A stretch of DNA of 64,000 nucleotides, from assembly GCA_029532415.1 (NCBI GenBank), contig JAQOTA010000058.1, forward strand, positions 496,001-560,000, written 5' to 3'. Below, one piece after another: positions 21,153 through 24,100 of this stretch. This stretch comes from Marasmius tenuissimus (taxonomy: Eukaryota; Basidiomycota; Agaricomycetes; Agaricales; Marasmiaceae). The notes beneath the pieces were generated by a model. The model did no database searches, was not told where the DNA came from, and saw nothing but the letters and a program-made list of their open reading frames with translations. Position 1 is the stretch's first letter. The number at the start of each line of letters is the position of its first letter. The position numbers and the translations under genes were made by a program.

Positions 21153-24100
21153 TCAGTCCGTTCCGTTGACCTTGAGCGCGCCAGCCTTAACGCTCTCTGC
21201 TCCGCCTCCAACGGGGCGCTTCAGTTTGTTTGCCCCAGCTTCGACGATGAATCGGGCGCTGACGAACGCGTCCAGATTCGGAGTGCCTTGTCATTTCTCG
21301 TCAGCACTACGAAGTGTGATGGAGATCATGGACAAACGGTCACGCACTGATGTTCCTCATAGCGTAATATGTCGCGTTAAGGGAATGTGGGTCAATAGTG
21401 AGGGTGAAGAAACCGCGATAGAACCCTTCGCTCCATTGCAAGTTGAGGTTAGTATCCGTGTCAACGAAGACTCTCGAGATGGCATCTGCGTCTTGGGGCT
21501 GTCTGAGCGGGCCCGGAAAGGAACTCCCGGATGTCACAGCCGTTCCCGCAAACTCTACCCCAATTGCTCCCTCGCCAGTGACGGGATCGTACCTATGGGT
21601 TTTCATGTCGAGGGGGGCTATGAATCATTCGGAAGTAGACCACGGCAGTCCTAGTAACTTACGTAGTGGAATCGTTGGGGTCTGGGGAAGATATGGTTAC
21701 CTCATGAGAAATTGTGCTTATTCTTGTAGACTTACGAGCCAGATCCGAGACCCAGTTAGCGTGGCTATCTCCAGCGAGGATCACAGTGTTGCTGATGTCG
21801 TTTTCATATAGGTGATCGAGCACTCGTTGTCGGTTAGCCCTATATCCGTCCCAAGCGTCCTACATCCACGGACAACACAAATTTGATCGAAGGACGGCGC
21901 GATGAGAATGAGGCGGGACGTACAAGATCGACTACACAGTGCGGGAGCATTGCAGTTCAGTTGACAAGGAAAGCGATATGGCCAGTGCGGGAAATGGTAC
22001 ATACATGCATCGCTTTCGTTGAGCTGAGTGAATACGATCTGTTGACTATCGAGCCTCTGGGCTTTAGCTGGGGTCGATGACGAGAAGGGAATGCCTCACC
22101 CCACGACCCGCCAGACTGCCCCGCGATTCTTAGATTCTGAGAGTGTGTCGTAAAGCCCTAAGGAGTAAGTTAGTATTGGCCTTTGCTCCGTTCACAAAGA
22201 TGAATACTAACACGTCTCCTGTTCAGACCCCATCAAGGATCGATTCGAAAACGAGGCAAGAGAATTGACGACTGTGGAAGCATCATATGCACGAAGTCAG
22301 TAGAGAATAAGGCAGTCCCAAAAAGATCCGTGCGTGCGCACATTCTATGGTTCAAGTTTAGCACTCGACTTGGAACAGCTAATTATAGCGAGTGGTCCGA
22401 GCTTACCTGTGTTGTAATAGACCTATGGCAGCGTTAACAGTGCTTCATTGAACTCTCAAAGAGGGTCTCCCTTACGTCCGTGATATCCCTATCGTATTGG
22501 CCTGAAGGGATTGGATTTCTTCGCTTAACGGACCAAACAAGAAAGAGTCCGTTATTGGACGAGACGTACGAGTATCAAGCATGGTCAGGTCCAGTAATTG
22601 CCCCACTTGGAAGTTTCGCCAGATCCTCAATTGGTCTGCCGCATCAACTTGTCGAATGGGCATCCATTCGTGATACGCTCTGCCAGTGTGCATGAGAAGA
22701 ACTTGAATAAAGGAGCTGCGATGAATATGCAACAACCTTATGGCCGCCAATTTCCTATCAGTGAAACATGCCCCGGATGGCGAGAATGAACATCCAACGG
22801 CGGTATCGTTCGAATCCGCGGTTCCGGCCTGAGAGAATATGTCGATAGCAAGAAGTTAGTAAGGCCACGGAACACGAAGCGACCGTTGGCTCCCTTGCCT
22901 TCCATGAATTGTCGGCAACCTAGAGTCCGACGAAGAATGAGTACTATACAAAGACCTCATGCTCGTTCATATGTAACCTACCTCATGGTCATCCTAATCA
23001 CGGTGGTACTATCATGAAAACGGGTTTCGCCATTTGAAAGAACCAGTGGACATACCCTGTTATGTGTGAAACCTTCGTGAATAGATCAGAATTCATCATC
23101 GATGGTGTGACTCACCAGACAGTGATCCAAGGAGCATGTTGGTGGGCAAAGACGAGGCTTACATCGGTACGGTACTGGCTCAAACGCTGGCGATAGTCAT
23201 GGATGGTCGCCAGTTCGCGTCCCAGCGTGGCACGTCCAATTCTGTCACTGCGCTACGAGTAAGATAGAGGAGCTGTTTATAAGATGGAAACAAGAGAGAC
23301 CCATTGCCTGGTAATTCGTATATCTGCGATTTTTGTGTCAGAAGATTGTTCGGGTCTTTGGAAAGATGACAGCCGTTACATAGTCACCAAGGTGAACGAA
23401 CAAGTCCGCGGATGTATTGTGAGCTGCGACCCCATACGCATTGAAGTATCCTATAAAGCCCAAGGTGGCTGAGTTTACGGTCGAACGATTTGGAAAAGAG
23501 AAATACAAACCGGCCTGGTATTGAGAACAAGAGAAAACTGCTAAGGTCAGAGGTTTCCCATCGTTCACGCTACTTGCGGGTGCTGTGATCGAGTAATTGA
23601 AAATTGGGATGGTGATATGCTGACGGTGTATATTCTGTCACTTACTGTCCGGATCTGCAAGCGTACGAGTGGCTCCTACGGGACTGGAGGAAGTCGGGTT
23701 TGCACAGTCCGAGAACTGGAAGGAATATTTTGTATCAGGTTCGAGTCCCTTGGCTTCTACCTTGACGGTCCAATCGACATCGTAGCTTGTGAAAGCTTCC
23801 CCTGATGCTACCGGATTCCCCTCAAGCTGTCCGTTGGGGAAGACTTTGTATGAAAGGCAAGCCGGTACGCTCTGGTCCGGCAGGGAGGTGGTGCCATCAG
23901 GTGAAACCGGCTCCGCCCTTGTCCAGAGAATGACCGATGTGTCGAAGGGATCGCCCTGTGCACAGGTCAGTGGACCGCGAACAGACTGCACACAAATCGA
24001 TAACATACGCTAGCCACTACGAGCACAATGCATCAGTATATCGAGTATGTGAGGCACAATCTTGATTATGGGGATCTGACCTGAATGAGTAAAGTTCAAA

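Follow-up and report, generated by a model that had tools for sequence, protein, structure and literature searches.

The closest described counterpart of the exon reported here lies in CYP621A of Fusarium, where a nuclear exon of 1 nt, contained in AGGGT, is supported by 18 SRA reads (Nelson and Syed, PMC12940212, February 2026). It was likewise noticed through a phase mismatch, nearly all gene models being wrong at that point, and its interval of 139 nt in F. graminearum leaves short flanking introns, as in our gene (PMC12940212). In plants, the 1-nt exons of Arabidopsis APC11 (PMC4674806) and of VPS55 (PMC8831610) are described as essential to the reading frame, widely conserved and missed by annotation, features that they share with the present case. 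The APC11 exon is an A rather than a G, was proven by cDNA and minigene mutants, and was argued by Guo and Liu to be spliced by intron definition and stepwise removal (PMC4674806); that of VPS55 is in part alternatively spliced (PMC8831610). Single-base exons have also been reported in rnl of an Ophiostoma relative (PMC12308204) and in placozoan cox1 (PMC5436844), but both are mitochondrial, and the former lies between group II introns and is not spliceosomal. Stwintrons, in which neighbouring U2 introns are removed successively in fungi (PMC12403724, PMC8469720), resemble the intron pair described below; in a stwintron, however, an element needed to splice the external intron is itself interrupted by the internal intron, whereas our introns are complete and have a coding base between them. 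Very short exons and introns of 45-55 bp are likewise found in basidiomycete nuclear genes, the P450 genes of Phanerochaete chrysosporium (PMC1184071), the shortest exon given there being 6 bp, as against 1 nt here. The literature searched, which leaves most subscription papers outside its coverage, yielded no nuclear 1-nt exon in a basidiomycete, a weak negative, and in the portions of other basidiomycete papers that were checked the term 'microexon' appeared only as a mapping option.

The gene described here shares with CYP621A a nuclear, spliceosomal and fungal setting, the AGGGT context and a predicted G exon within a conserved motif. CYP621A is an ascomycete P450 with SRA reads for two species (PMC12940212), whereas the present gene is a basidiomycete phosphatase gene known from DNA; the G is the third base of a Trp codon here and the central base of a Gly codon there; and, unlike in CYP621A, the arrangement occurs in three copies in one genome and probably in several orders of one class. 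A preliminary description of this DNA had stated, correctly, that a 1-nt exon is known from plants, and its further statement that no fungal case had been described has been superseded by CYP621A. The kind of exon is thus already known, from APC11 and VPS55 in plants and, since 2026, from Fusarium; this is apparently the first single-nucleotide exon of a basidiomycete, likely old and broadly misannotated, and what lends it added interest is that it is probably ancient, falls within a conserved motif of an enzyme and has been misannotated so widely.

The gene lies in a 64,000-nt stretch of DNA (the window), which is part of a 71-Mb fungal genome, and its 25-exon coding sequence was found by script to contain no internal stop (Table 1). 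Searches run with a 619-aa version of the protein, 2 residues shorter at the start of exon 9, matched PF09423 (PhoD; 335.8 bits) and PF16655 (PhoD N-terminal domain; 70.3 bits) and gave alkaline phosphatase D as the closest solved structure (2yeq_A, E 7.7e-73), with which the protein aligns through HLGDYIYE, WDDHE, LDTRQY and GD-HA. Profile and conserved motifs thus place the product among the PhoD phosphatases (PF09423, PF16655); the hydrophobic N-terminus resembles a signal peptide, so that the protein looks like a secreted phosphatase. We take WDDHE to be the metal-site motif of PhoD, an assumption that leans in part on the alignment. The phosphatase activity of Bacillus PhoD involves Fe and Ca at the active site (PMC4223295), and the passages of that paper that were searched do not name the WDDHE residues as ligands.

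Table 1. Coordinates of the predicted gene, of its exons and introns around the WDDHE codons, and of the neighbouring copy (positions within the window)
Feature	Position	Strand	Description
PhoD-like phosphatase gene	24470-21153	minus	25 exons, CDS of 1866 nt, 621 aa; built by hand, checked by script
Exon 9	23247-23116	minus	132 nt, ending ...ATC ACT GTC TG
Intron 9	23115-23057	minus	59 nt, gtgagt...cataacag
Exon 10 (putative)	23056	minus	Lone G, third base of the Trp codon in V-W-D-D-H-E
Intron 10	23055-22994	minus	62 nt, gtatgt...gattag
Exon 11	22993-22982	minus	12 nt, GATGACCATGAG, encoding DDHE
Exon 12	22919-22899	minus	21 nt, encoding VADNSWK
Exon 17	22344-22342	minus	3 nt, AAT; second ultra-short exon of the gene
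Degenerate tandem PhoD copy	about 28470-25277	minus	12-nt exon at 27086-27075
G of the tandem copy	27146	minus	Between cggcag and gtactt

Base 23056 is immediately preceded by an AG acceptor and immediately followed by a GT donor, and the intron on either side of it is of workable length. The preliminary description had all coordinates and lengths right here (exon 9 ending at 23116, the G at 23056, introns of 59 and 62 nt, and the exon at 22993-22982); its gene model of 24 exons and 1857 nt was replaced by the rebuilt one of 25 exons and 1866 nt, which is still divisible by three and free of stops. In both intact genes, that of the window and a paralogue on contig C34, we enumerated the joins that lead to an AG acceptor from a GT or GC donor, the search for donors beginning 30 nt inside exon 9. 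Within this range two single-intron joins were in frame and free of stops, one GT-AG and one GC-AG, and each of them removed V-W. The claim that no ordinary GT-AG pair joins the exons in frame was therefore too broad, since one such pair exists, yet this pair deletes V-W. When the true outer sites were kept, the G was the sole middle exon yielding VWDDHE in both intact genes, and ITVWDDHE was obtained, among the splice models enumerated, only by including the G at 23056, which bears out the earlier claim that this base restores Trp-Asp-Asp-His-Glu. The enumeration and the alignments agree that the base is needed for the reading frame and for the conserved motif; that it is spliced into the mRNA in vivo is inferred. 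A transcript with the one-base exon would contain ATCACTGTCTGGGATGACCATGAG between exons 9 and 12, whereas GTCTGGATGACC or ATCACTGATGACC would be contrary to it.

If the interval between exons 9 and 11 were merged into one intron it would measure 122 or 130 nt, as compared with 50-73 nt for the remaining 44 introns of the two intact genes. The sites at which introns 9 and 10 are spliced are of average strength or better, ranking 29th to 48th of 48 when the weakest is placed first. AGGGT is present exactly once in the interval of each of the three gene copies. The chance of an AGGGT that leaves at least 45 nt on either side was 0.7, 0.7 and 0.4% under a first-order Markov model (4000 draws each), and 3.0, 3.8 and 1.6% when the density of AGGGT across the window was taken as the basis. 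In the two intact genes the remaining 44 introns are free of AGGGT, and AGNGT is matched in them 7 times.

Three copies of the gene were found in the genome: the window gene, the degenerate tandem copy in the window and the intact C34 paralogue. A genome search with the C34 protein gave 29 matches, all inside these three copies, such searches scoring the best candidates only. The exon pattern is conserved in all three, each presenting TG/gtgagt, the lone AGGGT in mid-interval and ag/GATGA[CT]CATGAG. All 25 exons recur in the C34 paralogue, 22 with their length unchanged, and this gene reads ...atatatag/G/gtatgt... at L009:2435. Its exons 2-23 are 72% identical in nucleotides to those of the window gene, with a dN of 0.124 and a dS beyond estimation, while the intron interiors of the two genes are 54.7% identical, compared with 52.9% for shuffled sequences. 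A lone AGGGT kept between introns that cannot be aligned is the pattern expected of selection on an exon, and the sequence comparison indicates an exon older than the gene duplication in this genome. The exon matches of the tandem copy show 71-93% nucleotide identity; the donor of its second intron (gtactt) departs more from the consensus, which counts against the exon. As controls, two further PhoD lineages of the same genome carry the motif contiguously in one exon, as F-DDHE at C12:1495354-1496061 and as Y-DDHE at C20:70559-71383. The preliminary description had proposed a comparison with related PhoD genes; ag/G/gt was recovered in the three genomic copies, and its occurrence in other species is suggested by protein models only.

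Homologues were collected by three protein searches, two with proteins of this genome and one with a Hysterangium protein, giving 136 distinct sequences that are the best-scoring part of thousands. Eleven came from short jgi or lgn contigs (2.0-9.7 kb, one uninterrupted frame each) and 125 were gene models or named database entries; judging from their uninterrupted frames, the short contigs are most simply cDNA. Among these 136 homologues, xWDDHE was intact in 11/11 short-contig proteins and in 36/125 gene models (Fisher p 3.6e-6, with the grouping by source label made after the sequences had been displayed). Measured along the C34 protein as reference, with P0136 included, the WDDHE junction was disrupted in 87/125 gene models, and the two junctions flanking the 3-nt exon in 86/125 and 84/125, as compared with 0/11 short-contig proteins in each case. 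The remaining junctions were disrupted in 1-43 of 125 models (14/121 at one junction), and the 322 stretches away from junctions had a median disruption of 0.8% and a 90th percentile of 30%, some divergent stretches being high. The closest homologue listed, from the Marasmiaceae agaric Marasmius fiardii (76%), reads xWDDHE. The 36 clean models of the 125 may carry the correctly annotated exon or may have no extra intron.

The manner in which the gene models fail is itself informative as to the missing base. Sorting of 124 models by regular expressions, with P0006 moved on re-reading, gave 36 clean models, 21 that had lost V-W through a donor in the Val codon, 9 with one residue between VW and DDHE, 16 with VW-V-[SCRG], that is, TGG followed by a GT donor (15 sorted and P0006, in which VW-V-R comes first and exon 11 is read in the wrong frame), 2 with VW-[MT]-[IT]-M-R, 13 that skip the 12-nt exon and 27 otherwise broken. 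The two VW-[MT]-[IT]-M-R models, P0112 (VW-T-I-M-R) and P0131 (VW-M-T-M-R) from Lactarius and Phellinidium, are one base short, having the product of a straight TG/GA[TC]GA[TC]CATGAG join. Lactarius indigo reads VWTIMR and a short-contig protein 87% identical to it reads VWDDHE, a comparison between related species, as pairs of short-contig protein and gene model reach about 90% at best in BLASTP; both members of the pair P0032 and P0060 are clean. Exon 9 ends in another frame in Marasmius sp. AFHP31 (P0136, ...PMDYCL-DDHE) and Agrocybe pediades (P0104, ...TMDHGL-DDHE), which fits an upstream shift of the frame together with a straight join of exon 9 to GATGAC. Armillaria fumosa (VWVRADDHE) and A. 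novae-zelandiae (VWYDDHE) have proteins that are 94% identical; back-translated, the former is most simply explained by use of the second donor, after TGG, and the latter by use of the first, after TG. The pair thus presents both donors, so that the base between them would be separate from both exons. On their own, the VW-V models could also reflect retention of a single ordinary intron that follows an uninterrupted TGG.

Taken as a whole, the explanation in which base 23056 is a constitutive single-nucleotide exon is very highly probable, and the exon in the PhoD WDDHE codons is well supported by the paralogues and by the pattern among homologues. The best-surviving alternative, which we regard as very improbable, is a single intron of 121 nt whose TG-AG boundary is non-canonical or slipped (TGG/TGAGTC...TTAG/GATGAC), by which TGG would be formed without base 23056. 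This boundary also yields WDDHE and TGG/TGAG is found in all three copies, but an intron of this size would far exceed the remaining 44 in the two genes, and neither the AGGGT retained in mid-interval in 3/3 copies with diverged introns nor the occurrence of VW-V-[SCRG] models beside a 94% identical relative using the other donor would be explained. Still less probable is that the GT inside the Val codon serves as donor for a 127-nt intron, giving a PWIT-DDHE protein without V-W. No other GT-AG single-intron join in the range enumerated is in frame and free of stops, this one is present in both intact copies, and 21/124 annotated homologues are modelled in this way; against it, 0/11 short-contig proteins have this form, the solved homologues 2yeq and 9uya keep W before DDHE, an intron of 127 nt is roughly double the normal size, and the models resemble a gene finder's detour round a missing base. 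Least probable of all is an assembly error or a dead gene lacking one base in exon 9 or 11, as the adjoining degenerate copy with its in-frame TAA in exon 5 (27764-27762) might suggest, given the matching arrangement in the intact C34 paralogue, the dN of 0.124 with synonymous change beyond estimation, and the signs of a one-base deficit in models of several species.

Failed models of some sort span Agaricales, Russulales, Polyporales, Hymenochaetales and Gloeophyllales. The models from Cantharellales (5/5) and Phallomycetidae (3/3) were all clean, compared with 28/116 elsewhere, and the exon may therefore not be universal in the class; the lineage was checked for one species of each group. 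As read from the proteins, the single-nucleotide exon is probably common to several orders of Agaricomycetes. It is likely, taking the following as one claim, that it arose once in Agaricomycetes, later than the branching off of Cantharellales and Phallomycetidae and probably through an intron gained one base away from an existing intron, that it has since persisted in at least five orders (Agaricales, Polyporales, Russulales, Hymenochaetales and Gloeophyllales), and that most public gene models of this phosphatase family in these are wrong at WDDHE. Among the best 120 matches listed for each intact protein none exceeded 80% identity, and no transcript of this species was seen. A scan for other genomic DNA bearing the exon found no relatives in viral contigs, and the 80 loci kept of 290 relatives on genome contigs were all prokaryotic by title; WDDHE was present in 80/80 of these, but the retrieval patterns included WITVWDDH, and this biased count was not used as evidence.

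The proposed splicing of the single-nucleotide exon relies on ordinary components. The G would be flanked by two introns of unremarkable size (59 and 62 nt), neither of which lacks any part of its GT or AG, and each would be recognised across its own length (intron definition) and removed one after the other. Simultaneous recognition is improbable because the first AG occupies positions -3 and -2 of the second donor, and U1 on this donor would overlap the acceptor machinery on the first AG, which points to successive removal. Calculated U1 pairing was stronger at the first donor (-9.2 and -11.1 kcal/mol) than at the second (-6.2), and the second donor is left unharmed when intron 9 is out first (-6.5). 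These values suggest that intron 9 is removed before intron 10, leaving TGG/gtatgt, the order being a guess from the better U1 match. The joined mRNA would read ATC ACT GTC TG/G/GAT GAC CAT GAG and encode I-T-V-W-D-D-H-E in the PhoD active-site region. The preliminary description held that the spliceosome must define a 1-base exon; this is not required, as sequential intron definition suffices with introns of normal length and sites of average to strong rank. A stwintron was considered and rejected, introns 9 and 10 each having an intact GT and AG (their branch points are candidates only). The exon would persist because an mRNA that lacks it is frameshifted within a conserved motif. Its origin may have been the gain of an intron one base away from an older one; for CYP621A, Nelson and Syed propose that a base was lost and a cryptic AGGGT then adopted (PMC12940212).

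With the present case the range of single-nucleotide exons comes to include basidiomycetes, and it suggests that such exons, rather than being accidents, can remain stable through several fungal orders. It would account for the 89/125 sampled gene models without an intact xWDDHE, and annotators are advised to permit exons of 1 and 3 nt. The gene also offers a natural system for examining the splicing of two introns that have room for one base between their sites.

The window gene is rich in other micro-exons, with 8-nt exons at 24016-24009 and 21931-21924 in addition to the 12-nt exon at 22993-22982 (all on the minus strand), and all three have equal lengths in the C34 paralogue. The 3-nt exon 17 is AAT in the window gene, GAT in the C34 paralogue and appears as ag/AAT/gt in the tandem copy. 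The donor of intron 12 (22898-22829, minus strand) is of the GC type in the window gene (gcaagg); the tandem copy reads gcaggt at the matching place, but the C34 paralogue has a GT donor.
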